From Mesostigma viride (taxonomy: Eukaryota; Streptophyta; Mesostigmatophyceae; Mesostigmatales; Mesostigmataceae): a DNA stretch of 64,000 bases. The DNA lies in contig RPFO01000644.1 of assembly GCA_009746045.1 (NCBI GenBank), positions 821,180-885,179 of the forward strand. The letters run 5' to 3'. Shown piece by piece: positions 4,119 through 49,581 of this stretch (its first letter is position 1; every line of letters starts with the position of its first letter). The notes beneath the pieces are model-generated. The model saw only the letters and a list, made by a program, of their open reading frames with translations, had not been told where the DNA came from and made no database searches. A program made the position numbers and the translations under genes.

Positions 4119-5927
4119 CGCGCGCCCCCCCCCGCCGCTCACCCCGAGACGGCCGCCCGCCTCGGGGTCGCCGGACCCCCGCCGCCGCCAGCGCCCCCCT
4201 CCTCGGCCGCGGACTACCAAGTCCCCGCCTTGCAGGAGGGCTGCCTTGCCACTGACGACGTCGTCCCCCCCTTCACTTTGAAGGAATTGGACGGCGCCCT
4301 TGCTCGCCTGCGGTACGATGCGGCGGTCGGTGCCGACCACCTTTCTGCTGAGCTGCTGAAGACCCCTGATCTGGCGGTTAGGGATCTTCTGCTGGCGTTC
4401 TGCAACCGTGTCCTGCTCTCTGACGAGCCTCCGCCTGCTGAGTGGCAGACGGCCATCCGCGTCATGCTGTACAAGAAGGGCTCTGCTGCTGACCCCGGCA
4501 ACTACCGGGGTGTCTGCCTCCAGAGCGCCGCGCTGAAGGTCTTCATGCGCATGATGCTGCACAGGCTCCGCGCCGCGCTGGACCCACACCTGGGTGAGTC
4601 TCAGATGGGTTTCCGTCGTGGTCGTAACACTGTCATGGCTGTGTTTGTCGCGCGCCGGTTGATGGAGGAGGTGCGTCGACTTCCCCCTGACAGTTTGCCG
4701 CTGGTCTTCATTTTTGTTGACTATATCAAGGCCTTTGACACGGTTCTCTGGGAGGCTCTTTGGGCCATCCTAGCTCTGGATCGGGTACCACCTGCGTTTA
4801 TTGCTGCCATTCGCCGACTGTATGAGGGCTCACAGGCAGTAGTGCGGACTGCGGAGGGCACCACTCCACCATTCCCCCTTCACCACGGGGTGTGGCAAGG
4901 TTGTGTCCTGTCCCCATACCTGTTCATTATTGTCGTGGATCACGTCATGCGCCGGGCACGTGCGCGCTTTACTGCTCTTAAGGGGTTCGAGCCAGGCTTG
5001 GACATCCTTAACGTGAAAGAGCACGGCGGGGTTAGACCTGGTTACCGCCTTGCCGACCTGATTTATGCGGATGATACCACCCTCATCGAGAGCCCCGAGC
5101 ACATTCAGACCTGGCTGGACTGCCTGGGCCTGGAGGCGCGGGCGGTGGGGCTGGAGATTAGTGTCAAAACTGAGGCGATGGTGATAGGGGCATCCAGTAA
5201 ACCACCGCTGCCGCGCCTGCTCGACGGGACGGAGGTCCCGTTCCGCGACCGCTTCAAGCTGTTGGGGAGCTGGCTTCCTGACACCGCCGACGATGTGGAC
5301 ACCCGCATCGGCCTTGCCTGGGCCAAGCTCCGTTCGCTCACACCTTACTGGCGCTCGAAGGGCCTGGACGGGCACCGCAAGCGCATGCTCTTCAAGGTCC
5401 TCGTCCTCACGGTGCTCACGTATGGCGCCGAGGCGTGGACCCTCCCACCCAAACTGGCAGCTCGGCTCGACGGCACAGTTTACAGGATGCTCCGGCAGGT
5501 CCTTAACGTAGGTTTTTCCGAGCGTCCGTCATCAGAGTCTTTGTATCATGGCATGCCTCGTGTTTCGGACGAGATTAGGCAGCGTAGGATAGCATTTGTA
5601 GGACACCTTGCCCGCACCAGCCAGGTCGACACCACCCTTGGTCTGGCCGGCCCCCAGCGGCTTGGCCAGCCAGGGCGGCACATTCTGACCTGGCCTGGCC
5701 CCGCGGACATTCCCAAAAGGGTAGGGAAACCTGTCACCAACTATGTTCAGATGATGCTGGACGACCTAGTGGTCCCAGCCCAGTTTGAGCACCGCATCCA
5801 CTCTCTCTCCCGTCTTTGGACTGCCATGCAGGACAAGACGCGGTGGAAGAAGATTGTCAAGGCGCACACGCCCGACCCTGTGGGCAAGCCACCTCCCCCC
5901 AGGCGGAGGAGGCGTTTTGATGAGTAG
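4113..5927 (+). CDS. LINE family B reverse transcriptase (604-codon open frame)
   Basis: A long uninterrupted frame with RT blocks in order: YKKGSAADPGNYRGV, GFRRGRNT, block A FVDYIKAFD (Asp203, Asp209), block B GVWQGCVLSPYLF, block C YADD (Tyr318-Asp321), then the thumb YGAEAWTL and a C-terminal GHLARTSQVDTTLGLAG. All catalytic Asp are present, so this part could still be active. The C-terminus ends RRRRRFDE. The annotated Met is only the first ATG in frame; the natural protein is an endonuclease-RT fusion whose upstream part is frameshifted. It is about 60% alike family A by eye. Confidence 0.9.
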   Translation: MGRAPPPAAHPETAARLGVAGPPPPPAPPSSAADYQVPALQEGCLATDDVVPPFTLKELDGALARLRYDAAVGADHLSAELLKTPDLAVRDLLLAFCNRVLLSDEPPPAEWQTAIRVMLYKKGSAADPGNYRGVCLQSAALKVFMRMMLHRLRAALDPHLGESQMGFRRGRNTVMAVFVARRLMEEVRRLPPDSLPLVFIFVDYIKAFDTVLWEALWAILALDRVPPAFIAAIRRLYEGSQAVVRTAEGTTPPFPLHHGVWQGCVLSPYLFIIVVDHVMRRARARFTALKGFEPGLDILNVKEHGGVRPGYRLADLIYADDTTLIESPEHIQTWLDCLGLEARAVGLEISVKTEAMVIGASSKPPLPRLLDGTEVPFRDRFKLLGSWLPDTADDVDTRIGLAWAKLRSLTPYWRSKGLDGHRKRMLFKVLVLTVLTYGAEAWTLPPKLAARLDGTVYRMLRQVLNVGFSERPSSESLYHGMPRVSDEIRQRRIAFVGHLARTSQVDTTLGLAGPQRLGQPGRHILTWPGPADIPKRVGKPVTNYVQMMLDDLVVPAQFEHRIHSLSRLWTAMQDKTRWKKIVKAHTPDPVGKPPPPRRRRRFDE

Positions 5928-23259: not shown

Positions 23260-25707
23260 TTGCGTCAATACCTGCTGAGTCAGATTGCGCTTTGCGCTAT
23301 CAATCATGCCCACCCATATCGCCCCTATCCCCCCAGCGTCACCCCGGCCCCTCCACCTTCCACACATGTGTCCACCGATCCTTCCCTTTACTCCACCAGT
23401 CTCCGCTGCTTACGTCACATGTCTCGGCTTATGCAACGCGGCAACTTTCATGCATCCTATCTCGAAGCCTGCAGCTTGAAGAAGCTTACCAGCTTACACA
23501 TTGCCGTCGGGTCGTGCTCCCCAGCTGATCTGCAAGTCCCCCGCTCCCATGCCACTAGTCTGCGAGGCCTTCTCTCACGTATCATTCGGCACCGTGTCAA
23601 TGGGAATGCAGATGCACTGCGTCCGCGCCGTTTACTGATCTCACCTTTCATTCATGCTGCGATGGATGAGCTGTGTCTGCCACACATTCTGCATTTGCCG
23701 CAAGTGCAGGCTGCGATGCCGCTCGTGGTGTGCAACACTTTCGGCACTCCCATTGCCGCCTGGCGTTACTCTCCCACCTTGCATGGGACAAATCGGGTTT
23801 TCAGCAACGGGCAGGTCAGCTAGCTGCGATACAACGCCCACCGAGCTGGCCACCATCTTGGCAGGGCCCTGCCCCTGCCAACAACAACGGTATTTCAAGT
23901 ACCTTGATCCCACCTCACAGCACGTCATGACCGCTGACCTCAGCATCCTGCCGAGCCACACGCGTGTAGACCTTTTTGCCAAAGGCACCAAGTTTCGGCC
24001 GTGGGTCCAGCGCACGTGTGCCAAAGAGGTGAATGCAATGCTCTCAACATCACTGCGCAAATTCTGCAATGCCATGTGCACGGACCTACAGCTTGCTCCC
24101 CTTGCCATGGAACCGTGGTTTCGCGCCGTCATTCACGAATGCAATGCACGTCTCACCAGGCTTGATTACCGTCTCCGGCAGGTCCACCGCACCACCTGGC
24201 TCAACACCACAGATAAAGCACTTCTTGACCACTTCAAGCAGGACTTTATCATCACGTGTGTTGACAAGAGTGCCAACAACTTTGCTTTCATATGCAAGAA
24301 GCACTACCTTGCTACTTTGCAACACGAGTTGGCGTCCAGCCCTACCTATGTTCAGCGTGCACAGTCCACCGCCAGTATCACTGCTGCTCATCGGGCTTTT
24401 CTGCACAGCCAAAACATTTTTGCTCGGGCATTCCTTAAGCGGCAGCGACGCGCCACCACCACTACGTTCCCATATCTGTATCTCACTCTTAAGCTGCACA
24501 AAACTCCTGTTGCTTTGCGCACCATTGCTGCGTCGCATTCAGCCCCACTGATGCCTCTCTCGAAACTCATCTGCCATGCTTTGAATGCTCTTCTCCCCGA
24601 AGCCAATGCATTACATATGGGTGGAGGTGCTGTCGAATGCCGGGTATGAATGCGCTGGTAGTTGGATCGTCATAGACTCAGCCCAAGTACGCCTACGCCT
24701 TGCCGCCCTTAGCCGTTCTAAGACAGCAGCAGAGAAACGTATACCTATGCCCATAGCCACCTATGATTTCACCACTCTATATACCACACTAGATTTGCAC
24801 GATTTGAAAGCTCGTTTAGATAGCCTCCTTACTCGTCTGTATGCACGTAGGCCTCACGGGCGCAACCACCTGCACGTGCGTGTTTCTCAGACCAAGCCCA
24901 CGGCAACGTGGCTCTCATTCAGGGATCGCGGCAGGTGCTATCGTGCGGGATGGTTATAATTATATTATCACGAAGGCTGACCTTGTCCATTGGATCTCTT
25001 ATCTTGTTGATAACACCTTCATCTGTTTTGCGGGCAATGTATACCAACAAGCTATCGGCATCCCTATGGGCACTAACTGTGCCGGGCTCCTTGCAAACCT
25101 CTATCTATACACTTATGAGCTTGCCTTCATGGAGAATCTCATTGCCTCAAACGATGATGTTCTCATCAGGCGTTTTATCCATACATGTCGATACATTGAT
25201 GATGTCATCGCTTTCGACAACCCTGATTTCGCAACCCATTTGTATATCACCGCTGGTCTGCCTGGCATCTACCCGCAAGCGTCCCTCACATTAAAGCTCA
25301 CGTCGGAGGATACTCATTGCAATTACCTCGATCTTAACATTACCCATAACAAGAAGGGCTGGCGTACGGCTGTCTATGATAAGCGCAAGGATCCTAAATA
25401 CCAGCAAATTCCTTTTATTCGTTACCCCGATATTCACAGTCTCCTTTCCCACACAGCAAAATATGGTGTTGTTCTTTCTCAGTTACATCGTTTTTCCCGT
25501 CTTTGTTCTTATCGTGTTGATTTCATCACGACTCTTGTTGAACTCTTGCAGCGTTTATTGGTCAAAGACTATGACCGAGCCATTATGCTCCGTCAAGTCC
25601 GATGTTTTTTGCAACGTCACCCACATCTGTTCGGTGCTGCCCCTTGGCACAAGCTCTACAAACAGGTCGTGGACCGGCTGGATCGCATAGTATCTCCGCA
25701 CATCTGA
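23260..25707 (+). pseudogene. Penelope-type reverse transcriptase, three frameshifts
   Basis: Pieces: 23260-23820 (N-terminal region), about 23815-24630 (FIITCVDKSANNFAFICKKHY, YLTLKLHKTP), about 24620-24940 (YDFTTLYTTLDL, block A) and about 24930-25707 (GIPMGTNCAG block B, CRYIDDV block C, NYLDLNIT). Each junction is a shift of the same sense. DFTTLYT, GIPMGT and YIDD are typical of Penelope-like RTs rather than LINE or LTR RTs. No GIY-YIG endonuclease motif is visible at the C-terminus. It has the catalytic Asp pair but cannot be translated as one protein as it stands. Confidence 0.75.
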
Positions 25708-26272: not shown

Positions 26273-26510
26273 ATTTCTATGCAATATAAAGGCGCGATGG
26301 CCTCTGGGCCACAGCCGTCTTTACTAACGCAAACACTCACCTGTTTCACCTCAACGCAAGAGGCACTTTCCAAAAGTGCGCTGAGCATGCACCGGCCCCC
26401 AAACAAGGCCCGATTCCTCGAAACAAGCGGCTGGAGCACAGAAGCGCCATCACCGGAACCAGCTACAAAAAATTGCCCGCTATGAAGCCTCAGCCTGGCA
26501 ACCCCACGTT

Positions 26511-26644
26511 TGTCGCGTACTCGTGCCAAACTCCCTGCACTGACAGTAGCCCACGACCTCGTTGGCCCTCATGAGGTATGGCTGCATGGGCCGGTGATCG
26601 ATGGGCCACATGCTAGCCTTACCCCACTAGTGCTGCCCACTTTT
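26511..26644 (-). repeat. Unit X1 (134 bp), outer end of the element
   Basis: Apparently identical to X2 at 27776-27909. In element orientation it begins AAAAGTGGGCAGC, a polypurine-like start, and ends CGCGACA, complementing the TGTCGCG at the other end of the element. Confidence 0.75.
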
Positions 26645-26646
26645 CT

Positions 26647-27773
26647 TAAGACGAGAAGCCAGTGCCAACTGCACTTCTCAAAAAGGTGAGACCTGAGAGT
26701 GAGGTATGACTAGGTTAGGCTTCACACTGTGTTCTTTGTTGCAAATGAAATAACGTTTTTATTACCAATACTCTACCTAACTTGGCAGCTCTGTTTCAGC
26801 AATGGCTGGGCTCGATGAAAGAAAGGAGGGCTGGCCACACTTGCCACGCACCACCATGACCAAGACAGAGTTCAAGGATCCACACAGAGCTACATCCAAC
26901 GCCCTGGTGGAAACACACACTTATCCCAACGAATGCCTCACACTTACGCAATATCTTGCGTCAGCCTTACCACGTAGCCACGCTCAGTATCTGATCCTGA
27001 CGACAACCGCTTTGTCGTCCATACTGCTTCAATTACACCAAAGCTACTCCGTGGCACTCGGCTTTGGTCAGCACCAAGACCTAAAAGTACACAAAATCCT
27101 AAGTCGTTGTCTGCAACGACTCCCTGTTCCGCATATGAAACATATCATCTAGCACTTTCTCTTTAGACGACAAAATCAACTAGACAACCTGGGTAGGCCA
27201 GAAATCCCAGACGACAAAATGTCCTTGTCGCAGATCACTCCAGTGTCGACTTGCCGACCCCTGAGCTTGCCAAACAACTATATCACCAACCAAGCATGTA
27301 CGACAACTAGCTGGCCCTGACGAGAAAAGCTGCCTCGTCGCATTCACAAAAGCGGCTTGCCAGCCTGCCGAATATCAATGCCAATATTGCACGACATTAT
27401 CTACCTGCAGCGGACAGTTCTCGAGATCAATAACGCGCCAGCTTGCGTGCACGTGCATGTTCAGCCTGCACGATAAAGCATAATTGCCAGGCTGGCAGCC
27501 TAGCTTGGTCCGTGTTGTAGTCCAGCAGCCAGTGCGTGCTGCTTGCCAGCGTTGGCACTGACCTCTTGGTGACGCTTGTCAGTACCGCTGTCAACTCCCA
27601 GTGCTGCGCGTCGCACTACGGCGCATGCGTTGCTCCCGTAAGGCCCAAATGCCAAAGGCGTAACAACTCGCACACGCGCAATGCCTATAGCTGCCTCGCC
27701 TCGTCCCCCGGGCCGGCCGCGTGGCGGCCCCGCGTAAAGCCGATACTCGTGCGAATCGGAACGGCGCGCGACA
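26647..27773 (-). repeat. 3' LTR core (1127 bp)
   Basis: Nearly identical to 34410-35535, with a few indels and substitutions near 27570. In element orientation it starts TGTCGCGCGCC and ends CTTCTCGTCTTA. Two bases (AG) separate it from X1, and two (GC) from X2. Confidence 0.85.
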
Positions 27774-27775
27774 GC

Positions 27776-27909
27776 TGTCGCGTACTCGTGCCAAACTCCC
27801 TGCACTGACAGTAGCCCACGACCTCGTTGGCCCTCATGAGGTATGGCTGCATGGGCCGGTGATCGATGGGCCACATGCTAGCCTTACCCCACTAGTGCTG
27901 CCCACTTTT
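27776..27909 (-). repeat. Unit X2 (134 bp) between pol and the 3' LTR core
   Basis: A copy of X1. Its junction with the LTR core makes a perfect 16-bp palindrome CGCGACAGCTGTCGCG (27766-27781). The pol frame ends inside X2, at codons shared with X1. Confidence 0.75.
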
Positions 27910-30900
27910 AGCGCGGTGTACAATGGTCATGTTATATTCTTGAATAATCATGGCCCAGCGCGCCAGCTTGCCAGTCAGATTGGCACTTGTCATCAACCAC
28001 TGCAGTGGCTGATGGTCGGTGACCAGCGTGAACTGACGCCCGAACAAGTATGGCCGAAAATGTTTGATGGCCCACACCACGGCCAGAGCCTCGCCCTCAT
28101 ACGATGAGTACTTGGCCTCAGCCGTGTTGTTGCTCCTGCTGGCATACGCCACCACATGTTCCTTGCCATGCACGTCCTTCTGTGCCAACACAGCACCAAG
28201 TCCAACCCTGGACCAATCCGTGTATAGCACAAATGGCTGGGCATAGTCGGGCTGACGGAGTATCGGCGCTGAGGTGAGCTCTGCCTTGATGGTCTCAATG
28301 GCGCGTTGCTGCGCCGGACCCCATGCCCAGACTGCACCTTTCTTCAACAGCTCCGTCAGTGGCTTAACCTTGGTGCTGAAGTTGGGGATATAACCTCGGT
28401 AATACCCCGCCAGCCCCAGGTAAGCCCGCACACCCGCCACATCCGTGGGCGTTGCCGCGTTGACGATCGCTTCCACCTTGGCCGCTTGTGGAGTTCTGCC
28501 GCCAGGAATGATCTGGTGTCCGAGGAAGTCGAGGCTCCGCTGCGCAAACCGACACTTCTCGGGATGCAGCTTCAGGTTGGCTCGCGCCAGTGCCATGCGC
28601 ACCTGCTCAAGGTGCTGGAGGTGTTGCTCAAATGTCTCACTGAAGATGATCACATCATCAATGTAACACGCAGCGAATGGCATGCCATTCAACACTTGAT
28701 CCATGGCACGCTGAAAGATGGCACTCGCATTCCTATGCCCGAAAGGCATCCTGACCCACTCATAGAGTCGGTGGCCCCCCCAGAACGCGAGCTTGCGTTG
28801 GTCACCCTCCGCCACTTGGATTTGGTGAAACCCACTGCGGAGGTCTAGGGATGAGATGAACTGCACGCGTGGCGATATCCGGTCAAGCACATCGTCCACT
28901 CGCGGCATGGGGTACCTGTCCATCGGGGTGTGTGCGTTGAGTTGCCGCAGGTCCGTCGCCATGCGCATCCCAGTCCATTCACCTGTCACCGCATCCTTCT
29001 TGGGCGCCACGACGGTCGCGGCCGCATAGTTGGATGTGGATGACCGAATGATGCCAGCAGCCTCCAGCTCCTCGCATTGTTGCTGCACAAACTCCAGCTC
29101 AGCTTGACTCAGCCGGTGTTGTCGGCGAAACAGTGGCTGATCGGTGTCCAGCGGGACCCGCATCTGCCCACCATTGTAGCATCCCAGCTCTTGACTGCTG
29201 AATGCAAACGCGTTGCGCGCACCTTCCAGCCACTTGAGCAGCCTCGCACGTTGCTCAGCTGTGAGGTGCTCACAGACGCTCCATTGATGGTTTGCTGCCG
29301 GGTCGCTTGCGCTCGAGACATTGTGCACAGCCACCGTGGGACCGCGCACGGCCGCCGACTGAAACAGCATGTATGCCGCCGCTCCCGGCGTAATGCCTCG
29401 CTCTCCCACCTGCCGTTGTGCCTTCGCCACGAGGAACTGAAAGGCCGGAGCCGCCGAGAACACACAGCTGGTGAGGAGCGCAGTCATGAGGATGACTGAC
29501 CATACCTGGCGCCAGGTGTAGGACCACCCTTGGCCCCTGCCGCCTGCACGCTCCGCCTTAGGCACACCAGCCGGCGCAGCACCGGTGGGTGGAGAAGTTT
29601 CACTCTGCGCCTGTGCAGTCGCAGCATGGACGGGAAGTGCAACCCGCTGCACCCTCCGCACACCTTGCGCTGCTAGCAAGGTGTACCCCACCTGCCAGGC
29701 TGACATGGCCTGGCCAATGAGCGACCATCGCTCCACCTCCAGGAGCCCTGGGGCGGCGGATGCACCTTCGGCAAAGCCCATGCTTAGTTCACGAAACCCC
29801 GCGGGTGGCTGAACCAAGAGACCTGTGGCACGCTCCCACACAAGCCCCTTGCCCCGGTCACGATAAGCCTGGGACCCTTGGTAACTGACAAGGGTGGGCA
29901 GTGCTCGCATGGGGGCGCCTGCCTTGTTGACGGGCGCGTAGGGTGCCTGATCATCGTGCTCCACATACTGCGCCGTGAGTTGACTGGGCAACACGACATC
30001 GACCGGTGGCAGCTCAATGTGGCTAGCGACATGCTGCATCACCGCCTGCGTAGAACCTTGGCCAGCGATGTTGGTCCAGAACGCGCGCAGCCGATGGGTA
30101 TTCCCTCCCAGCCCGGCATTGTCCGACACCACGGGTTCCCCCAAAATACCCACAATGGTGCCCCAATCCTCCCGAACAGTGGGGCTGGGACTGTCCACCG
30201 CCACTACGTTTTCAAATAAGTAGGCGGGTGGCACCTGCTGCAGCTGCTGGAGCTCGCCCACAATGCGCAGCATGTCCCAAAATAGGCCGCTCCTGCTGTC
30301 GGCAAGGCCCCGGCCATGCCCAGCCTGGCTCATGCCTTGGCACTCCCAGCCAGCAATGACCAACCCTACCTCGCCATGTTGTGAGATGAGGCGGCGCAGC
30401 TGCTGCTGCCCAAGGAAGCGCACGTCATGAGTGCCCTCGCCGAAGACATCAGCCCAGGCGGATGGAGGAAATTGTGCTGGGTATGCTTGCGACAAGATAG
30501 CGCAGTGGTGCAAATATGCCGCCCTGGCTGTGAGCGATGCCTCCACCGCAATGAGCTTGCTGCATACCCCCCCGCTGCTCAGGAAACCGGCTATGCCGCC
30601 ACCCATACCTGCGAACAGCTCCAGCACGACGGTGGCACGCCCGAAGTCCGGGATGCGTTCCAGCACCTCTGCGCTAAAGCCGGGGTACTGCGTGATGGCA
30701 CCCGGCTGGCGCCGCTTCCCCCCAGCACCCTTGGGCAGTGCCTGACATGCCGCCATCACCCGTGCGCGCACATCGCGCAGGCGTGGCAGGGGCGCAACCT
30801 GGGCAAGCCAACTTTGCCTCTGCGCATCCCGCGCTGGCAACGCCGCAGGCAGCACACACCGGTGCCTATCGCGCGCGCGCTTGTCGCTAGCCGCTTGCGC

Positions 30901-30945
30901 CATGTGCACCGCTTGCGCGTCCGGCCACACGCCCCCCCCCAGTTC
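27892..30945 (-). CDS. Pol polyprotein: C5 cytosine DNA methyltransferase + reverse transcriptase + RNase H, no integrase
   Basis: The frame opens straight after the UGA ending Gag and is in the same frame. Numbering from GTG 30930: methyltransferase motif I VLELFAGMGGG (102-112), motif IV WECQGMS with candidate catalytic Cys197, motif VI ENV (240-242), motif VIII HRLRAFW (279-285), motif IX GFRELSMGF (378-386), motif X IGQAMSAWQVGY (405-416). A hydrophobic stretch (about 477-501) separates it from RT: KKDAVTGEW, SLDLRSGFHQI, MPFGHRNASAIFQ, YIDDV (756-760), then RNase H (TDWSRVGLGAVLAQ, ... TDHQPLQWL). It stops at HRAKSGQH, where Ty3/gypsy pols normally go on to integrase. RT and RNase H copy the element; the methyltransferase would modify cytosine. 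The catalytic motifs look intact, but activity is unproven. Confidence 0.92.
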   Translation of the reverse strand, partial: ELGGGVWPDAQAVHMAQAASDKRARDRHRCVLPAALPARDAQRQSWLAQVAPLPRLRDVRARVMAACQALPKGAGGKRRQPGAITQYPGFSAEVLERIPDFGRATVVLELFAGMGGGIAGFLSSGGVCSKLIAVEASLTARAAYLHHCAILSQAYPAQFPPSAWADVFGEGTHDVRFLGQQQLRRLISQHGEVGLVIAGWECQGMSQAGHGRGLADSRSGLFWDMLRIVGELQQLQQVPPAYLFENVVAVDSPSPTVREDWGTIVGILGEPVVSDNAGLGGNTHRLRAFWTNIAGQGSTQAVMQHVASHIELPPVDVVLPSQLTAQYVEHDDQAPYAPVNKAGAPMRALPTLVSYQGSQAYRDRGKGLVWERATGLLVQPPAGFRELSMGFAEGASAAPGLLEVERWSLIGQAMSAWQVGYTLLAAQGVRRVQRVALPVHAATAQAQSETSPPTGAAPAGVPKAERAGGRGQGWSYTWRQVWSVILMTALLTSCVFSAAPAFQFLVAKAQRQVGERGITPGAAAYMLFQSAAVRGPTVAVHNVSSASDPAANHQWSVCEHLTAEQRARLLKWLEGARNAFAFSSQELGCYNGGQMRVPLDTDQPLFRRQHRLSQAELEFVQQQCEELEAAGIIRSSTSNYAAATVVAPKKDAVTGEWTGMRMATDLRQLNAHTPMDRYPMPRVDDVLDRISPRVQFISSLDLRSGFHQIQVAEGDQRKLAFWGGHRLYEWVRMPFGHRNASAIFQRAMDQVLNGMPFAACYIDDVIIFSETFEQHLQHLEQVRMALARANLKLHPEKCRFAQRSLDFLGHQIIPGGRTPQAAKVEAIVNAATPTDVAGVRAYLGLAGYYRGYIPNFSTKVKPLTELLKKGAVWAWGPAQQRAIETIKAELTSAPILRQPDYAQPFVLYTDWSRVGLGAVLAQKDVHGKEHVVAYASRSNNTAEAKYSSYEGEALAVVWAIKHFRPYLFGRQFTLVTDHQPLQWLMTSANLTGKLARWAMIIQEYNMTIVHRAKSGQH

Positions 30946-33759
30946 TCAGCCGCATCCCCCTGGCTCCACCTCTATGCTGGCGGGCGACACCACTGCAGCC
31001 ACACACGCGTCTAGCGACACCACCCCCTGCGGGTTAGGCTCCGGGTCGCTGCTGCACTGAATGGGAAGAAGCGCCTTTTGCTTCCCCTCCCCCTGCCAAT
31101 CACGGCGGTAGGTCGCAACCTCCAGCCAAGGGTCAATTATGAGCCCGAGGCGATACATGACGTCCATCCCGATAAGGGCTGCATACCCACACCTGTCGAC
31201 CACCAAGGCCGGCACAGCCACGCAGGCCATCCGCTTTGGGTCCGTGGGGTTGAGGATGACGTTGATCAGCATGGAAGTCATTGCATCGGGTCGCGCCGCT
31301 GGCCCTTTCCATCCCTCCACGAGAACGGTGCTGTCTATGAGCCCGCCGTTCTCACGGGTCGCACCACACATCTTGGCCAGCTCCATGGTGATCACGAGCG
31401 GCCCGGCTCCGCCATCCAGCTTGGTGACGGACTTTGCGCTGGGGCACACCATAGGGCCCCAACAAGTGCCGTCCTCGCTGATTGCCTGGAAAGCGATAGC
31501 CGGGGACCCATCAGGGTGCTTTGCCACCGTGACTGTCCTCGGCACCCGTGACATCCGCTCCTCGCGGGTTGCTTCCCGGGGCATGGTTGGTGCTGGGACG
31601 TCTGCCGGGGTTGCCGGCATAACTGGCATGGTGACCCGCCGCGCAGTTTCCGCCACCGGCAATGTGCGTGCGTCTAGGCTGTCGGCGCACCGCTGCAGTG
31701 CCGCAGCTGCTTGGTGCACCAACGTGATGCCCCGCTGCCCGCAGCCATCAATCACTTGCCTGGCAGAAAACAAGGGAGCATCAATCACTCCATCCACTGG
31801 CAAGAATGGTGGCAGCTTGCGCCGCTGCTCGGCGTCGGCGGGGTTCGGGTGCTCCAGCAGCGATGACTCACCGCCGGTTGAACCTGCCGGGAACGATGCA
31901 GGAAGCTGGGGTGGCCCCCCCTCACCATTTCCCGTGGTTGGTAGGAACGACGGCAATGCCCGTGCCTGCTTGCCTCGGGTAGCTGCCTGGACCTCGACGG
32001 CATGGATAGGAGCCCAGAACAAGTCGGGTTGCTCCACCAGCGTATACGCGTCATACGCTTCCATCCCCGCCGCCTGCCCACTCGGTTGGCTGGGTGACGC
32101 CGGCGCTGCCGATACCTCAGCTGCCTGCTCTGTTGGCGTGCTGTCGGCCGCCACCATGGCCGCTGCATGTGCTTGCACGGTCTTGGTGACCACTGGGTAC
32201 TTGCACCCTGCCGGAGCATGGGCGGGCGTTCCAGCCGCGTGCTCCTTCTTGCACTGGGCTGGGCAGGCCCGCTTCACGTGATCTGGCTTCCCGCAGATCC
32301 AACATGCCTTGTGCGGGTCAGCCGTCGCCTGGCCGGTGCTGCTGGAGGCCGTGTTGTCGCCCCCCGCGCTGGCTGGCTTGTCCGCCTGCGACCCAAACTG
32401 CCGGCTGCTTGGTCCACCCCTTCCACCGCTGGACCCTCCACCGCCTGATTGCGCGCCACCCACCCTGTTACCCTTGTGCGCTTGGGCGACTTCTTGGCGT
32501 ACCAGCTCCACTAGGTCCGGGAGACCCCGTGCCTGTCGCCGGTTGAATGCATGCACTTCCGTGCACAGCTGGGCCAGGTCCCAGTGACAACCAAATCTAG
32601 GTTGTGGGATCATGGCAGCTTTTGGACCCAACGCCTTGAGCCACTTCTCACACGCCTCCGCCTCCGTCCATGCCGGGACCTCATCCCGCAAGACCTCCAG
32701 GCGGTCCATCGTGGCGTCAGGCGACTCCTTGTCCCCCACCTTGAAATCATGCCACTCCGCCTCCGCCTTGGTGGAGGAGTGGGCGTACTTGGCGCGCAGA
32801 AGTTCCCACAGCTCCTCGGCAGGGTCGACGTCAAATACCACGTGTTGGTAGTCCGGCAAGCCTTGTTGGTCGCGCCTGTACCACACATCGGATCTTCCCG
32901 TCTTCAGCGCCACCTCATGGTAGCCTGTGACCCACCGCTGCACCAGCTTTTGCGTGTTGCCCGAGAAAAACATTGGGATGTTGTCCATCTCAAAGGACTT
33001 CGGCAGCTGGTTATGCGTGACGATATACTGCTGGTGCAGCCAAGTCTTATATTTCCAATAGGCTTGGTTGATGTCAACAAGCCCACCGTCAGCAGTATAC
33101 CTGTCCTTGAGCTCCACCTGCGCTTGCACCGGCATTCCCACCTTGGATCCCTCAATCGGCGACCCATTGTAGCCCACCGGCATGCTTGGCGTCCTTGGTA
33201 GAGTAGCCACAAACCTCGGCTCCAGCCCATAGCCTCGTTCCACCGTGTATGGACTGCCTCGCTGCAATCCCGGAATGATGCCTGGCCGCACCCACGGTGT
33301 TTGTAGCCGTGGCGTCGCTGGGTTTGTTGGTGCCGGCGCATGCGGCACGCCAAAAGAAAACCCAGTTTGTGCACTAGGCATCCCAGGCACATGCTGCCGC
33401 GACGCCTGCATCTGTGGCGCTTGCGCCTGTGGCTGCACGGATGGTGCCTGCGACATTAAAGGCACCTGCGACTGCAACACCTGCGCTTGGGGCTGCCAAA
33501 CTTGCGCCTGCGGCTGCAACACTTGCGGCTGTGGTAGGTGCGGCGCTGGTGTCAGCGTTGCTTGCGCGGTCCACGTCGCGTGCAGACTTGCAATCTGCGC
33601 CGCCAACTGCGCCGTCTGCTGCTGCTGCAACTGCATAGCCAGCTGTTGCTGCTGCATCTGTTGTTGGGATTGTGCTACATGTTGCAAAATCTGCTGCAAC
33701 ACATCCGCACCCACCCCCTGGCTGGCACTTGGCCCCGGCGCTAGCCCGGTGCCTGCCAA
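30946..33759 (-). CDS. Gag with zinc knuckle and retropepsin-like domain
   Basis: 937 codons ending in TGA (30946-30948). Residues about 20-130 are Gln-rich, probably coiled coil then low complexity. Residues 220-430 carry the Ty3-type Gag core (YWKYKTWLHQQYIV, MFFSGNTQKLVQRW). A zinc knuckle CWICGKPDHVKRAC lies at 486-499. A C-terminal aspartic-protease fold has LDGGAG at about 780 and ALIGMDVMYRLGLIID about 90 residues later. The usual D-T/S-G is D-G-G here, so activity is uncertain. Roles: RNA packaging, particle assembly and polyprotein cleavage. The first ATG given may not be the real start: a second frame upstream (33741-34127) looks like the true N-terminus. Confidence 0.85.
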   Translation of the reverse strand: MAGTGLAPGPSASQGVGADVLQQILQHVAQSQQQMQQQQLAMQLQQQQTAQLAAQIASLHATWTAQATLTPAPHLPQPQVLQPQAQVWQPQAQVLQSQVPLMSQAPSVQPQAQAPQMQASRQHVPGMPSAQTGFSFGVPHAPAPTNPATPRLQTPWVRPGIIPGLQRGSPYTVERGYGLEPRFVATLPRTPSMPVGYNGSPIEGSKVGMPVQAQVELKDRYTADGGLVDINQAYWKYKTWLHQQYIVTHNQLPKSFEMDNIPMFFSGNTQKLVQRWVTGYHEVALKTGRSDVWYRRDQQGLPDYQHVVFDVDPAEELWELLRAKYAHSSTKAEAEWHDFKVGDKESPDATMDRLEVLRDEVPAWTEAEACEKWLKALGPKAAMIPQPRFGCHWDLAQLCTEVHAFNRRQARGLPDLVELVRQEVAQAHKGNRVGGAQSGGGGSSGGRGGPSSRQFGSQADKPASAGGDNTASSSTGQATADPHKACWICGKPDHVKRACPAQCKKEHAAGTPAHAPAGCKYPVVTKTVQAHAAAMVAADSTPTEQAAEVSAAPASPSQPSGQAAGMEAYDAYTLVEQPDLFWAPIHAVEVQAATRGKQARALPSFLPTTGNGEGGPPQLPASFPAGSTGGESSLLEHPNPADAEQRRKLPPFLPVDGVIDAPLFSARQVIDGCGQRGITLVHQAAAALQRCADSLDARTLPVAETARRVTMPVMPATPADVPAPTMPREATREERMSRVPRTVTVAKHPDGSPAIAFQAISEDGTCWGPMVCPSAKSVTKLDGGAGPLVITMELAKMCGATRENGGLIDSTVLVEGWKGPAARPDAMTSMLINVILNPTDPKRMACVAVPALVVDRCGYAALIGMDVMYRLGLIIDPWLEVATYRRDWQGEGKQKALLPIQCSSDPEPNPQGVVSLDACVAAVVSPASIEVEPGGCG

Positions 33760-34127
33760 CCCGCTGAGCCGTATCTGCGATGATGGTGTGATGGGAAGTA
33801 CTGTTCCATCTTGAGGACCTGCCGCGCTGCCACCCAGCCCTCCGTTGACGACCGATGTGTCACCACCACCACCACCAACGCCACCACTCCGATCGGCGAC
33901 CCCCCCCCATTGCCCATCCCGGAACCCGAGGCTGCTGGTGGGACGAGTGGCCCATTGCCGTTGTCGCCAGTTGGCAAGGATGCCTGCGTGCCTGCAGCAT
34001 CACCCTGCCGCGGTGCGCCATCCACCACCGTGCCTTGGTTGGGGTTGGCGCCCCCTTGATGTTGACCATCTTGGTCTGCCATCAAGCTTCGTGCTTGTGC
34101 TCTCGTGAGCACCGTTTCTGCAACCAA
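33741..34127 (-). pseudogene. Probable N-terminus of Gag, out of frame
   Basis: Starts MVAETVLTRAQARSLMADQDG, a typical Ty3-type Gag opening, and runs as a Gly/Pro-rich linker into a GTG/GGT trinucleotide run (about 33860-33880), after which it is out of frame with the main Gag. Slippage in that run probably caused the shift. Programmed frameshifting is possible but less likely. Confidence 0.55.
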
Positions 34128-34409: not shown

Positions 34410-35535
34410 TAAGACGAGAAGCCAGTGCCAACTGCACTTCTCAAAAAGGTGAGACCTGAGAGTGAGGTATGACTAGGTTAGGCTTCACACTGTGTTCTTT
34501 GTTGCAAATGAAATAACGTTTTTATTACCAATACTCTACCTAACTTGGCAGCTCTGTTTCAGCAATGGCTGGGCTCGATGAAAGAAAGGAGGGCTGGCCA
34601 CACTTGCCACGCACCACCATGACCAAGACAGAGTTCAAGGATCCACACAGAGCTACATCCAACGCCCTGGTGGAAACACACACTTATCCCAACGAATGCC
34701 TCACACTTACGCAATATCTTGCGTCAGCCTTACCACGTAGCCACGCTCAGTATCTGATCCTGACGACAACCGCTTTGTCGTCCATACTGCTTCAATTACA
34801 CCAAAGCTACTCCGTGGCACTCGGCTTTGGTCAGCACCAAGACCTAAAAGTACACAAAATCCTAAGTCGTTGTCTGCAACGACTCCCTGTTCCGCATATG
34901 AAACATATCATCTAGCACTTTCTCTTTAGACGACAAAATCAACTAGACAACCTGGGTAGGCCAGAAATCCCAGACGACAAAATGTCCTTGTCGCAGATCA
35001 CTCCAGTGTCGACTTGCCGACCCCTGAGCTTGCCAAACAACTATATCACCAACCAAGCATGTACGACAACTAGCTGGCCCTGACGAGAAAAGCTGCCTCG
35101 TCGCATTCACAAAAGCGGCTTGCCAGCCTGCCGAATATCAATGCCAATATTGCACGACATTATCTACCTGCAGCGGACAGTTCTCGAGATCAATAACGCG
35201 CCAGCTTGCGTGCACGTGCATGTTCAGCCTGCACGATAAAGCATAATTGCCAGGCTGGCAGCCTAGCTTGGTCCGTGTTGTAGTCCAGCAGCCAGTGCGT
35301 GCTGCTTGCCAGCGTTGGCACTGACCTCTGGTGACGCATGTCAGTACCGCTGTCAACTCCCAGTGCTGCGCGTCGCACTACGGCGCATGCGTTGCTCCCG
35401 TAAGGCCCAAATGCCAAAGGCGTAACAACTCGCACACGCGCAATGCCTATAGCTGCCTCGCCTCGTCCCCCGGGCCGGCCGCGTGGCGGCCCCGCGTAAA
35501 GCCGATACTCGTGCGAATCGGAACGGCGCGCGACA
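34410..35535 (-). repeat. 5' LTR core (1126 bp)
   Basis: Copy of 26647-27773. It is not followed by unit X; the sequence right after it in element orientation (TCCACACAGAGC) does not look like a tRNA-primed binding site. The X end and primer site may therefore have been deleted. Confidence 0.85.
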
Positions 35536-35884
35536 CGTTTCTTCATCCAATACCCATTCCAGCGTCGAATATTAAGTGGAAAGCATGCAATGTTAGCCGC
35601 CACGTATTGCTGGCTTAGCTGCACCATGAATCCGCCGCGGATGCCACCTATTTCCCCCTTGCGGGGGCGTGGAAATGGCAAAGGCATAGAGTTACTATCC
35701 CGCAGCCCTACCGCGAGGGAGATTTTTTTAAAAACTCAATGAATTATGCTAAAAATTAGCTCGATCATTGATTAGTAACTCGTTGATTCCCCGACAATAA
35801 TTTGGCCAGCCATAGCTCGGTAGGATGTCTGGCAAGTAGTACTGCGGTCGTGCTGCGTGCATAGCACCTCGGGCAGCCTTGTGT
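35536..35884. other. Unassigned flank of the LTR element
   Basis: Starts with the CGTT target copy. No gene is recognised. Confidence 0.4.
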
Positions 35885-36305
35885 GGAATCGCCTGGCCAT
35901 ACCTTGTGTGGAATCGCCTGGCAGCGCATTCCAACCGTAGAGACTTGTTTCGAGTACCGGCGGGTGAAACTCTGGTGCTAGATACTCTGGGCCATACCTT
36001 GTGTGGAATCGCCTGGCATCGCATTCTAACCGTAGATACTTGTTTCGAGTACCGGCGAGTGAAACTCCGGTGCCAGATACTCTGGGCCATACCTTGTGTG
36101 GAATCGCCTTGGCATCGCATTCTAACCTAGATACTTGTTTCGAGTACCGGCGAGTGAAACTCCGGTGCCAGATACTGGGGGCATACCTTGTGTGGAATCG
36201 CCTTGGCATCGCATTCTAACCGTAGATACTTGTTTCGAGTACCGGCGAGTGAAACTCCGGTGCCAGATACTCGGGGCCATACCTTGTTTTGAAATTTGGA
36301 ATCGC
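35885..36305. repeat. Minisatellite, about 96-bp unit, about 4.3 copies
   Basis: Each unit contains CCATACCTTGTGTGGAATCG, CGCATTCTAACCGTAGATAC and TTTCGAGTACCGGCG. Units start near 35897, 35992, 36088, 36182 and 36277 and differ by a few bases. Frames on both strands are by-products. Confidence 0.85.
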
Positions 36306-38059: not shown

Positions 38060-40083
38060 TTGCTAGATGATGCTGGCTCACCGCAGCAGCAGCTCAACCA
38101 GTGGTATTCCTCCCAGTCCCGGCTGCTCGGCGCCCCCCCGCCGCCTCCGCCGCTTGGCCCTCTGGCGGCCGCACCGGCCTGGCAGTAGCACCGGCGGACG
38201 TCCCTGCGCCGCCCACGCCGCCCGCCGCTGAGCAGGACTACACGTACCCAGCCCTGACGGAACCCCTGGCCCACCCCAACGAGCTCCCGCCGTTCACCGA
38301 GCTCGAGCTGAGCACCGCCGCCAAGCAACTCCGCTTCTATGCTGCCGTTGGACCTGACCAGCTCCCAGCCCCGGTGATTAAGCTGACGGCGCTCACGGGG
38401 TTCCTGCTTGACGTCTGCAACCGGATCCTGCTTGCCGACGCGCCGCCGATTCCTGAGTGGCAGCACAGCTACCGTATTATGCTGTACAAAAACAAAGGTT
38501 CCCCTGACGACCCCGCCAACTACAGAGGAGTCTGCATCCAGAGCGCCGCACTTAAGTTGTTCATGCGCATGATCCTCAACCGCCTTCGTTCTGCTCTCGA
38601 CTGTCACCTTGGGGAAAGTCAAATGGGCTTCCGTCCTGGGCGCAACACCGTCATGGCCATCTTCGTCGCGCGTCGCCTCTTCGAGGAAATCGCTCTCCTG
38701 CAACCTGGTGAGTTTCCCGCCATCCTGATCTTCGTCGACTTCATCAAGGCTTTTGATTCTGTCCTCTGGGACGCTCTATGGGCTGTACTTGCTCGCGCTC
38801 GCGTCCCCACTCCCCTGATTACCGTCATCCGCACGCTGTATGAGGGGTCCACCACTTCGGTGCGCACTCAGCACGGCATAACCCCGCCCTGCCCACTGCA
38901 GACCGGCGTCTGGCAGGGTTGCGTCCTGTCGCCGTACCTGTTTATTATTGTAGTGGATTATGTTATGCGCCAGGCACGTGCTCGCTTTGCTAGCATTGCA
39001 GGCCGTGCCCCTGGCCCAGCGATCACGAACGAGCTTGGGGAAGGGGGGCCGACTAACAAGCAGAATTTACTAGCTGACCTCATTTATGCCGACGACATCA
39101 CGCTCATCGAGAAGCCGGAGTCTGCCCAACTTTGGCTGGACTGCCTGGCGCTCGAGGCTCGGGCGGTTGGTCTAGAAATCAGCCCCAAAACGGAGGCCCT
39201 GGCCCTCGGCATGGCAGGGCCCCCACCCACACTCCGCCTCTTAGACGATGCCGAGGTCAACTACCCTACTTCAGGCCGCTTCAAGCTGCTCGGCAGTTGG
39301 CTTCCTGACTGCGAGGACGACATGACGACACGGATCGGCATGGCGTGGGCGCACCTCCATGACCACCGCCGCTGGTGGAGCAACCCCGCCCTACCCCGGA
39401 TCGTCAAGCGTGACCTCTTCAAGGTCGTCATTCTGACGATCCTGACCTACGGCGCCGAGACGTGGACACTGATGCAGGAGCTGGAGCAACGACTCGACGG
39501 CGCCGTCACCAAGATGCTGCGCAAGGCCCTTAACATCCCCTTTGGTTTGCACATTAGTAATGAGGATTTGTACGCTGATTTGCCCTATGTTTCCCACATT
39601 ATTAGGCACAGGCGCCTGGGCCTAGCCGGGCACCTGGCCCGCACAGATCAGGTAGATACATCAGATAGACTAGCTGGCACCAAGCTCGCCCAGCCTGGGC
39701 GCTATGTCCTCACCTGGCGTGCCCCCGGCCGCGCGCGGCAGGGCCGCCACCCGTGGACTTTTCGTGATAGACTCGGCATGGACATGTGCTACACTAGACG
39801 TGACGGGCTCACCCCCGGGCAGCCTCCTGGTTTGTCTGTAATATGGAGGCAGATGGTGCGCAAGGATAGATGGCAAGTAGTGATGAAGGAGACCACCCCC
39901 AAGCCTGTGGGGGCTCCGCGTGTGACCAAGTATGGCATTCATAGCGATTCGGGCCGCGGTGCCCACACCCCTGTAACTAGGACCTAGATAGCTTATACCA
40001 TCCATTCCATCCCATGTTCCCCTCCCACTGAGGACTTATGCTCACGTGACGCAGTCACGTGTCTATTAATTAATTAATTAATT
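38060..40083 (+). mobile_element. LINE family A, best copy, 12-bp target duplication
   Basis: AAAGATGATAAA occurs at 38048-38059 and 40084-40095. The copy is 5'-truncated before the RT, holds a long RT frame, and ends with the hairpin at 40043-40061 (arms CACGTGAC/GTCACGTG, loop GCA) and TTAA repeats. Confidence 0.92.
38101..39987 (+). CDS. LINE family A reverse transcriptase (628-codon frame)
   Basis: RT blocks in order: YKNKGSPDDPANYRGV, GFRPGRNT, FVDFIKAFDSV (block A), GVWQGCVLSPYLF (block B), YADD at residues 329-332 (block C), SGRFKLLGSWLPDCEDD, thumb YGAETWTL, C-terminal GHLARTDQVDTSDRLAG and a basic tail ending PVTRT. The active-site Asp pair is intact, unlike the 0.6-kb copy. The first residues (MVFLPVPAARRPP) are out of frame compared with family B's linker, so the natural frame shifts near 38185 and this copy is probably already damaged there. 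The endonuclease is absent through 5' truncation. Confidence 0.9.
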   Translation: MVFLPVPAARRPPAASAAWPSGGRTGLAVAPADVPAPPTPPAAEQDYTYPALTEPLAHPNELPPFTELELSTAAKQLRFYAAVGPDQLPAPVIKLTALTGFLLDVCNRILLADAPPIPEWQHSYRIMLYKNKGSPDDPANYRGVCIQSAALKLFMRMILNRLRSALDCHLGESQMGFRPGRNTVMAIFVARRLFEEIALLQPGEFPAILIFVDFIKAFDSVLWDALWAVLARARVPTPLITVIRTLYEGSTTSVRTQHGITPPCPLQTGVWQGCVLSPYLFIIVVDYVMRQARARFASIAGRAPGPAITNELGEGGPTNKQNLLADLIYADDITLIEKPESAQLWLDCLALEARAVGLEISPKTEALALGMAGPPPTLRLLDDAEVNYPTSGRFKLLGSWLPDCEDDMTTRIGMAWAHLHDHRRWWSNPALPRIVKRDLFKVVILTILTYGAETWTLMQELEQRLDGAVTKMLRKALNIPFGLHISNEDLYADLPYVSHIIRHRRLGLAGHLARTDQVDTSDRLAGTKLAQPGRYVLTWRAPGRARQGRHPWTFRDRLGMDMCYTRRDGLTPGQPPGLSVIWRQMVRKDRWQVVMKETTPKPVGAPRVTKYGIHSDSGRGAHTPVTRT

Positions 40084-42616: not shown

Positions 42617-43120
42617 GAACTTAAATTAACTTAAATTAAATTAAATTAAATCAAATCAAATCAAATCAAATCAAATCAAATTAACTAAATTAAATTAAAT
42701 TAAATTAAATTAAATTAAATTAAATTAAATTAAATTAAATTAAATTAAATTAAATTAAATTAAATTAAATTAAATTAAATTAAATTAAATTAAATTAAAT
42801 TAAATTAAATTAAATTAAATTAAATTAAATTAAATTAAATTAAATTAAATTAAATTAAATCACATTAAATCAAATTAAATCAAATTAAATCACATTAAAT
42901 CACATTAAATCAAATTAAATCAAATTAAATCAAATTAAATCAAATTAAATCAAATTAATCAAATTAAATTAAACTAATTATTTGATTATTTAATTATTTA
43001 ATTATTTAATTCTTTAATTAATTTCATTATTTCATTATTTCATTATTAAATTATTACATTATTACATTATTACATTATTACATTATTTAATTATTTAATT
43101 ATTTAATTATTTAATTATTT
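42617..43120. repeat. TTAAA pentanucleotide microsatellite, about 0.5 kb
   Basis: About 60 TTAAA steps, then TCAAA variants, then TTATTTAA and CATTATTA degenerations. The unit is that of family B tails, whereas the right part merges into the tail of a minus-strand family A copy. Confidence 0.9.
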
Positions 43121-43540
43121 AATAGACACGTGACTGCGTCACGTGAGCTAAGTCCTCAGTGGGAGGGGAACATGGGATGGAATGGATGGTGTAAGCTATC
43201 TAGGATATGGAATGTGGGAAACATAGGGCAAATCAGCGTACAGATCCTCATTACTAATGTGCAAACCAAAGGGGATAATAAGGGCCTTGCGCAGCATCTT
43301 GGTGACGTTGCCGTCGAGTCGTTGCTCCAGCTCCTGCGTCAGTGTCCAGGATTGTCAGAATGACGACCTTGAAGAGGTACGTCACGCTTGACGAGCCGGG
43401 GTAGGGCGGGGTTGCTCCACCAGCGGCGGTGGTCATATGGAGTTGCGCCTGGAGTTGATCAGAATATGGAGTTGCGCCCACGCCATGCCGTGTCGTCAGG
43501 TCGTCCTCGCAGTCGGGAAGCCAACTGCCGAACGGAGTCA
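43121..43540 (-). mobile_element. LINE family A, internally deleted copy
   Basis: Tail, hairpin and 3' UTR jump at about 43203 straight to the thumb region (encoding LHISNEDLYADLPY to LGSWLPDCEDD). An insertion of about 26 bp repeats ATATGGAGTTGCGCC. Non-coding in practice. Confidence 0.8.
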
Positions 43541-43614
43541 TGTTCCTAATTAATTATTTAATTAATTATGCCTATTAATTATTTAATTATTTAATAATTA
43601 ATTAATCATTAATA

Positions 43615-43845
43615 ATTAATAGACACGTGACTGCGTCACGTGAGCATAAGTCCTCAGTGGGAGGGGAACATTGGATGGAATGGATGGTGTAAGCTATCTA
43701 GGTCCTAGTTACAGGGGTGTGGGCACCGCGCGGCCCGAATCGCTATGAATGCCATACGCGGTCACACGCGGAGCCCCCACAGACTTGGGGGTGGTCTCCT
43801 TCATCACTACTTGCCATCTATCCTTGCGTACCATCTCAGTGCCTC
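43615..43845 (-). mobile_element. LINE family A 3' tail copy
   Basis: Hairpin, UTR and the last about 30 codons (RKDRWQVVMKETTPKSVGAP). It sits between the tails of two other A copies in the same orientation. Confidence 0.8.
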
Positions 43846-43849
43846 CATT

Positions 43850-44886
43850 AATTAATTAATTAATAGACACGTGACTGCGTCACGTGAGCATAAGTCCTCA
43901 GTGGGAGGGGAACATGGGATGGAATGGATGGTGTAAGCTATCTACTAGGTCCTAGTTACAGGGGTGTGGGCACCGCGGCCCGAATCGCTATGAATGCCAT
44001 ACTTGGTCACACGCGGAGCCCCCACAGACTTGGGGGTGGTCTCCTTCATCACCACTTGCCACCTATCCTTGCGCACCATCTGCCTCCATATTACAGACAA
44101 ACCAGCTAGGAGGCTGCCCGGGGGTGAGCCCGTCACGTCTAGTGTAGCACATGTCCATGCCGAGTCTATCACGAAAAGTCCACAGGCGGCCATGCCGCGC
44201 GCGGCCGGGGGCACGCCAGGTGAGGACATATCGCCCAGGCTGGGCGGGCTTGGTGCCAGCTAGTCTATCTGATGTATCTACCTGATCTGTGCGGGCCAGA
44301 TGCCCGGCTAGGCCCAGGCGCCTGTGCCTAATAATGTGGGAAACATAGGGCAAATCAGCGTACAAATCCTCATTACTAATGTGCAAACCAAAGGGGATGT
44401 TAAGGGCCTTGCGCAGCATCTCAAGGTGACGTTGCCGTCCAGTCGTTGCTCCAGCTCCTGCGTCAGTGTCCAGGTCTCGGCGCCGTAGGTCAGGATCGTC
44501 AGAATGACGACCTTGAAGAGGTACGTCACGCTTGACGATCCGGGGTAGGGCGGGGTTGCTCCACCAGCGGCGGTGGTCATGGAGTTGCGCCCACGCCATG
44601 CCGATCCGTGTCGTCAGGTCGTCCTCGCAGTCGGGAAGCCAACTGCTGAGCAGCTTGAAGCGGCCTGAAGTAGGGTAGTTGACCTCGGTGTCGTCTAAGA
44701 GGCGGAGTGTGGGTGGGGGCCCTGCCATGCCGAGGGCCAGGGCCTCCGTTTTAATTCTGGGGCTGACTACTAGACCAACCGCCCGGAGCCTCGAGCGCCA
44801 GGCAGTCCAGCCAAAGTTGGGCAGACTCCGGCTTCTCGATGAGCGTGATGCCGTCGGCATAAATGAGGTCAGCTAGTAAATTCTGC
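43850..44886 (-). mobile_element. LINE family A, 5'-truncated at RT block C
   Basis: From tail (43850) to just after the YADD codons (44850s), where the frame reads ADGI. It is cut at 44886 by the TTAA of the next element. The frames in 44063-44860 hold YGAETWTL and GHLARTDQ pieces in three frames, so it is a pseudogene. Confidence 0.85.
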
Positions 44887-44890
44887 TTAA

Positions 44891-48686: not shown

Positions 48687-49581
48687 AATTAATTTGACTT
48701 GTGCTCCCGTTGGGGAGTCACGGAGCATTAACCCCGATCGATGGATGGATGGATGGATGGATGGATGGATGGATGGATGGATGGATGGATGGATGGATGG
48801 ATGGATGGATGGATGGATGGATGGATGGATGGATGGATGGATGGATGGATGGATGGATGGATGGATGGATGGATGGATGGATGGATGGATGGATGGATGG
48901 ATGGATGGATGGATGGATGGATGGATGGATGGATGGATGGATGGATGGATGGATGGATGGATGGATGGATGGATGGATGGATGGATGGATGGATGGATGG
49001 ATGGATGGATGGATGGATGGATGGATGGATGGATGGATGGATGGATGGATGGATGGATGGATGGATGGATGGATGGATGGATGGATGGATGGATGGATGG
49101 ATGGATGGATGGATGGATGGATGGATGGATGGATGGATGGATGGATGGATGGATGGATGGATGGATGGATGGATGGATGGATGGATGGATGGATGGATGG
49201 ATGGATGGATGGATGGATGGATGGATGGATGGATGGATGGATGGATGGATGGATGGATGGATGGATGGATGGATGGATGGATGGATGGATGGATGGATGG
49301 ATGGATGGATGGATGGATGGATGGATGGATGGATGGATGGATGGATGGATGGATGGATGGATGGATGGATGGATGGATGGATGGATGGATGGATGGATGG
49401 ATGGATGGATGGATGGATGGGGACACATGCACAATCCTACCGGTCTAATCTATCTACAGCATCAAGCCAACTCTATTCTAAGCTTTCTACCCTACATAGG
49501 GGTCCTGTCTGGCGTGCTTCCCGCGTACGTGTTTGCCAACGCGGGCGCTTCCCCACGGGAGGGGGTTCGTTGTCCTCTATG
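48687..49581 (-). mobile_element. LINE family C 3' fragment with a giant GGAT expansion
   Basis: ACCTGGGG at 48679-48686 and 49582-49589. The right arm shows the empty site (gggcccacctggga). It holds only the last codons of ORF2, the UTR, hairpin and tail, but its internal CATC/GGAT repeat is about 680 bp instead of the usual 15-30 bp. Confidence 0.85.
48740..49420. repeat. Perfect GGAT microsatellite, about 170 units
   Basis: 681 bp of GGAT with no visible interruption. Long frames across it (Met-Asp-Gly-Trp or His-Pro-Ser-Ile repeats) are artefacts of a 4-bp repeat without stops. Confidence 0.98.

Follow-up and report, generated by a model that had tools for sequence, protein, structure and literature searches.

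Hosts usually silence transposons by methylation, and mobile elements that carry a methyltransferase of their own reverse that arrangement. For the streptophyte alga Klebsormidium nitens, a Gypsy element that has DIRS-like repeats and a captured DNMT3 in its Pol, KnitGypsy-Dnmt3, was published in 2018 (PMC5890265). DNMT3 capture by streptophyte Gypsy Pol is repeated in PMC6338049, and PMC12344493, with reference to that same work, mentions DNMT3 in long terminal repeat (LTR) elements, which it names Copia, and in DIRS elements. In Mesostigma viride, likewise a streptophyte alga, LTR elements make up 27.9% of the assembly and 5-methylcytosine was detected (PMC6947507). The locus described here lies in a stretch of 64,000 nucleotides of the M. 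viride genome (contig RPFO01000644.1 of assembly GCA_009746045.1, positions 821,180 to 885,179, forward strand), hereafter the window, in whose own coordinates all positions are given. It holds an element that is almost certainly a retrotransposon of the Ty3/Gypsy lineage with a DNMT3-type methyltransferase captured between protease and reverse transcriptase (RT).

The pol frame of the element runs stop to stop on the minus strand from 30945 to 27892, over 1,017 codons (1,012 amino acids from the first listed start), and Pfam recognises in it, in one frame and in this order, DNA_methylase (PF00145), RVT_1 and a Gypsy-type RNase H (Table 1; residues are counted from position 30945). The DNA_methylase match has an E value of 1.1e-10 and scores 42 bits against a curated cut-off of 22, RVT_1 is matched at 1e-29, and the RNase H is covered by two overlapping Gypsy-type models (3.6e-35 and 1.5e-38). 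A preliminary description made from the letters of the window had read the frame as the Pol of a retrotransposon, with a C5 cytosine methyltransferase that looked complete and stood ahead of the RT, in one frame with RT and RNase H; the Pfam order confirms that placement, and in the profile check of the region against C5 families the PF00145 match lay above its cut-off. Besides the Gypsy-type RT and RNase H, assignment to Ty3/Gypsy draws on a gag zinc knuckle, which scores below the Pfam cut-off, and on a protease recognised from motifs and alignment alone.

In its profile matches and its predicted fold, the methyltransferase domain is DNMT3-like: it is closer to DNMT3 than to DRM, DNMT1, DNMT2 or bacterial enzymes, and its best match by either measure is the catalytic domain of vertebrate DNMT3A/3B. 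Structure prediction gave five models from seven sequences, the best with a mean predicted local distance difference test score (pLDDT) of 80.7 and the others with 58-70. DRM was not among the 50 structure matches listed, which does not in itself exclude kinship with DRM.

Motif IV of the domain reads Gly-Trp-Glu-Cys, with Glu in place of the usual Pro before the predicted catalytic Cys. The preliminary description had singled out this form; the form itself stands, its being peculiar to this copy does not, as Glu is found in 63 and Pro in 11 of the 74 family rows that have a letter there. Because it is so widely shared, Glu-Cys is not decay of this copy. Other residues are kept, DNMT3A included: the Cys in 75/75 rows, the Glu of ENV in 76/76, both Arg of motif VIII (RxR) in 77/77 and the His preceding them in 75/77 (counted over 76 rows plus DNMT3A, the low scorers P0011, P0012 and P0013 having been dropped; numbers with P denote related proteins collected here). 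On this showing, Pro before the Cys would be usual for C5 methyltransferases without being defining. In a tree of 70 rows, built without the motif IV column and with P0065, P0066 and P0080 additionally dropped for their long branches, the Pro and Glu forms change 7 times (6-7 times in bootstrap trees), and at least 5 changes are forced by well-supported branches. Shuffled motif IV labels gave a mean of 8.6 changes and were as low as observed in 21 and 16 of 500. Since the motif is barely more clustered than in the shuffles and the bootstrap is not settled, the interchange may be partly tree error or recombination. Glu before Cys is, on this alignment and tree, a family trait that comes and goes, and the natural exchange of Pro and Glu beside a catalytic Cys amounts to an experiment on a motif usually considered fixed. 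Outside sources of a Glu-Cys domain were sought by pattern scans. Two scans of GTDB for a bacterial source returned 22 and 26 stretches, none confirmed; two of IMG/VR for a viral source returned 6 stretches, none confirmed, and 41, of which one held up, L001, an enzyme standing by itself that has the usual Ser-Pro-Cys and is a general relative only. These scans require exact short patterns, which divergent relatives can escape.

Among the M. viride models in EukProt, P0007 is 98.9% identical to the element over 278 amino acids, P0011 98.2% over 164 amino acids, and P0008 100% over 209 amino acids of gag, its methyltransferase part being without one piece. A search from P0002, with an uncapped 3,932 candidates and limited to proteins of about 700-2240 amino acids, gave 69 proteins: M. 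viride P0001, four from EukProt, one each from Haematococcus lacustris and Closterium, and 62 others including P0002. Two other protein searches scored the best 7,997 and the best 7,990 candidates. Klebsormidium was not among the matches listed in the second, which carries little weight, as that search leaned to the RT part and missed P0002-P0006. The methyltransferase profile was matched by 79 of 82 proteins (81 with P numbers and the window pol), a proportion that is no frequency, the proteins having been collected by likeness to the domain.

Two Pol orders occur in these related elements, methyltransferase-RT-RNase H and RT-RNase H-methyltransferase-integrase. The methyltransferase comes before RT or RNase H in 8 proteins (the window pol, P0016, P0017, P0023, P0034, P0049, P0068 and P0080), with an integrase behind in P0016, P0017, P0034 and P0049. 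RT or RNase H comes before the methyltransferase in 43, and where the protein continues an integrase and then usually a PHD finger follow; 14 proteins begin near the methyltransferase and continue into integrase, and 14 more are too short for their order to be read. On a methyltransferase tree of 73 rows, each of 200 letters or more and with P0007 and P0008 dropped as well, a single switch of order suffices, with nine rows of unclear order uncounted and with 14 rows scored as RNase H-methyltransferase in which the protein starts near the domain and has integrase behind. In an RT-RNase H tree of the 42 rows with both domains, support is 100/99 for a clade of the 34 RNase H-methyltransferase rows and 100/100 for the separation of the 40 methyltransferase-bearing rows from two plain Gypsy rows; the six methyltransferase-RT rows as one clade are neither shown nor rejected (approximately unbiased test, p 0.36). 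One capture and one move within Pol would be the simplest account of these trees, the single capture being only weakly tested because the outgroup consists of two plain Gypsy rows. Many proteins of the RT-first order, P0019 among them, end in a PHD finger behind the integrase, possibly a chromatin-reading module; chromoviruses carry a chromodomain at that position. A hydrophobic stretch (WSVILMTALLTSCVFSAAPAFQFLV; 29428-29505, minus strand) separates methyltransferase from RT in the window, and a similar one is found in P0012, a dinoflagellate transcriptome protein of 159 amino acids (EukProt, Prorocentrum lima) that is 55% identical to the end of the window methyltransferase and the linker over 160 columns; this likeness may reflect horizontal spread or contamination.

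Directly upstream of pol, and parted from it by an in-frame UGA, lies the gag-protease frame. We take its protease to be a retropepsin-like stretch on the strength of its motifs, and the region is also supported by alignment with the gene model P0001. At 31405-31419 (minus strand) the stretch reads LDGGA, as it does in P0008, while P0001 has LDSGA and P0004 LDTGA; LDGGA is presumably an unusual version of the retropepsin active site. The UGA is not present in the M. viride models P0001, P0008 and P0013, in which the protease region runs stop-free into the methyltransferase (gene models may bridge stops), and in the window it may have arisen by mutation or sequencing error, or may serve for read-through.

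On the minus strand the element is arranged A1-coding-B1-A2-B2, that is, with split direct repeats of the DIRS type and not with two plain LTR ends. A1 and A2 are 99.82% identical, and B1 and B2 are identical. The outer ends, TGTCGCG and CGCGACA, form a 7-base inverted match with TG...CA termini, and AACG is found at both flanks; for fixed borders the chance of a 4-base flank match is 0.0047, a lower bound, since the borders were picked after viewing the sequence. Given the near-identical repeats, the inverted TG...CA ends and the flanking match, the unit from A1 to B2 seems to have been inserted whole and recently. An ordinary LTR element spanning A1-A2 was rejected, since beyond A2 there is still B, and it is at A1 and B2 that the flanks match. 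The sequence at which B1 meets A2, CGCGACA-GC-TGTCGCG, resembles the joint of a closed circle, and the insertion footprint seems more DDE-integrase-like than tyrosine-recombinase-like. Pol stops just past RNase H, within repeat B. No Pfam match to an integrase or tyrosine recombinase was found in ten stop-to-stop frames of at least 170 amino acids overlapping the element, and when ten integrase pieces were compared with the window by tblastn, no integrase appeared behind RNase H. The one candidate remnant, a match of the P0016 H2C2 to 30726-30511 (E 4e-4), lies before and within the start of the methyltransferase and not behind RNase H, and was discarded; it was the sole match below 0.01 at an E limit of 1 (the others had E values of at least 0.02), and a limit of 1e-3 returned nothing. 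An element that joins DIRS-like repeats to an integrase-like footprint, with no integrase recognised, is informative on the relation of the two main retrotransposon integration routes.

The A-coding-B-A-B layout and the absent integrase could together be private to this copy, an ordinary integrase-bearing LTR element having been rearranged by deletion or recombination or misassembled; this would fit with just one copy being known in full, with the end of pol inside repeat B and with the integrase that four relatives of the same Pol order have behind RNase H. However, the 4-bp match and the TG...CA ends sit exactly at A1 and B2, as a single insertion predicts, and Klebsormidium elements are described with the same repeat layout (PMC5890265); we regard such a rearrangement as fairly unlikely. 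The missing integrase is best put down to supply in trans by integrase-bearing relatives, which is possible, if somewhat doubtful, or else to loss in this copy, which is less likely. As for the enzyme, we tentatively propose, at a shade below even confidence, that its function is to methylate the element's own complementary DNA (cDNA). Gag would package Pol together with the element RNA; RT would copy that RNA via a circle-like intermediate, restoring the A-coding-B-A-B form; the methyltransferase would methylate the freshly made double-stranded cDNA, with CG as the likeliest target, either ahead of its integration by an integrase from integrase-bearing relatives or shortly afterwards; and the new copy would arrive with a host-like mark, hidden from defences or with its harm tempered. 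Fusion within Pol means that the methyltransferase is probably made with RT, packaged and near the element's cDNA, and that it was kept when its place within Pol changed speaks for a real advantage to the element; retention across the element set also makes the reason for carrying the enzyme testable. In yeast, two DNMT3 domains of Symbiodinium DIRS elements gave de novo CG methylation (PMC5890265). We consider it somewhat more probable than not that the element is what its domains indicate and that its methyltransferase is also active, on the element's own or on host DNA.

Several observations weigh against methylation of the element's own cDNA. In yeast, no methylation by the Klebsormidium Gypsy domain was seen, in an assay that its authors call inconclusive (PMC5890265); the observed/expected ratio of CpG, 0.79 for the element and 0.84 and 0.80 for two stretches beside it, does not point to strong self-methylation, although CpG loss is not to be expected of every young copy; Glu replaces the usual Pro in motif IV; and, with a UGA in frame before pol, this copy may not make full Gag-Pol. 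The yeast result, the undepleted CpG and the sharing of Glu by most of the family would also suit a domain that keeps the methyltransferase fold without methylating and whose use to Pol is to bind DNA or RNA:DNA, or to help in packaging or targeting. DNMT3L serves DNMT3A in a comparable non-catalytic way. However, the residues required for catalysis only (Cys, the ENV Glu and RxR) are invariant in rows with a letter, and a dead Glu-Cys form would hardly be expected to swap with Pro-Cys as often as the tree requires, at least 5-7 times; we hold a non-catalytic module to be rather unlikely. The enzyme might instead act chiefly on host DNA, rival mobile elements or DNA viruses, in line with proposals that retrotransposon-borne DNA methylases serve as virus defence (PMC6338049) and that those of Symbiodinium could influence the host methylome (PMC5890265), but fusion to Pol should put it with RT, beside the cDNA, and this appears very unlikely. 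Decidedly unlikely, too, is a wider scheme in which the Glu-Cys branch would be a distinct retrotransposon DNMT3 with altered chemistry or substrate (e.g., RNA:DNA hybrids), captured a single time by an ancestral Gypsy element and shifted a single time within Pol, in elements that join DIRS-like circle copying to insertion with a DDE-integrase footprint.

Table 1. Features of the M. viride element, in window coordinates.
Feature	Position	Strand	Basis
Repeat A1, outer 5' end TGTCGCG	34410..35535	-	
Gag-protease frame, stop to stop, directly upstream of and in the same frame as pol	30949..33999	-	zinc knuckle, retropepsin-like stretch
UGA in frame, separating gag-protease from pol	30946..30948	-	
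Pol frame (methyltransferase, RT, RNase H; integrase none recognised)	27892..30945	-	Pfam
DNMT3-like C5 cytosine methyltransferase domain, pol residues 93-450	29596..30669	-	Pfam, profile, fold
Motif IV Gly-Trp-Glu-Cys with predicted catalytic Cys	30340..30351	-	
RT, pol residues 643-817	28495..29019	-	Pfam
RNase H, pol residues 873-1010	27916..28329	-	Pfam
Repeat B1, first bases are the last codons of pol	27776..27909	-	
Repeat A2, starts TGTCGCG	26647..27773	-	
Repeat B2, outer 3' end CGCGACA	26511..26644	-	
AACG (minus strand) at the left flank, 4-bp match, putative target site duplication	35536..35539		
AACG (minus strand) at the right flank, 4-bp match, putative target site duplication	26507..26510		

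Elsewhere in the window, two plus-strand frames at 23639-25707 with a GIPMGTNCAGLLANLYLY...YIDD stretch have no Pfam match and presumably belong to a Penelope-type RT. RVT_1 is matched in three plus-strand frames, probably of non-LTR elements, at 607-1710, 4110-5924 and 38071-39984, the last lying in a large inverted repeat with 43087-44888. Tandem arrays are found at 58874-63499 (a 25-bp repeat in about 187 copies, with strong GC skew), at 48736-49420 (a GATG microsatellite, about 171 copies) and at 35895-36287 (95 bp, about 4 copies), the last some 360 bp beyond the end of A1.

The preliminary description had noted that such capture was reported in a few algal and protist lineages and had suggested that the placement before RT, the motif IV form and the host might be new. 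In kind and in broad host group the capture was already published for K. nitens (PMC5890265), so the principle of capture is known; the Mesostigma element itself was not found in print. In the open-licence literature, no paper was found on this element, on the Glu-Cys motif of retrotransposon methyltransferases, on the two Pol orders of methyltransferase-bearing elements, or on a hybrid cycle of DIRS-like circle and DDE-integrase footprint.

Set beside the systems described so far, the Mesostigma element is most like KnitGypsy-Dnmt3, with which it shares a streptophyte alga as host, a Gypsy Pol, a DNMT3-related domain and DIRS-like repeats (PMC5890265), a comparison drawn from the published description. 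SymbioDIRS-Dnmt3 of Symbiodinium also has DNMT3 in one frame with RT and A-coding-B-A-B repeats, but is a DIRS element with a tyrosine recombinase in a separate frame (PMC5890265), whereas the Mesostigma element has Gypsy-type RT and RNase H and no recognised recombinase. The catalytic domain of vertebrate DNMT3A/3B, the best profile and fold match, has the same unpermuted motif order; it differs in sequence (about 22% identity over the aligned structure) and has Pro-Cys for Glu-Cys, and the remaining DNMT3 domains were not found by Pfam in the Mesostigma Pol. DIRS/PAT-type elements share the split direct repeats, A1-coding-B1-A2-B2. They insert by tyrosine recombinase and without target site duplication, whereas the Mesostigma element, in the one copy at hand, has TG...CA ends and a 4-bp flanking match.
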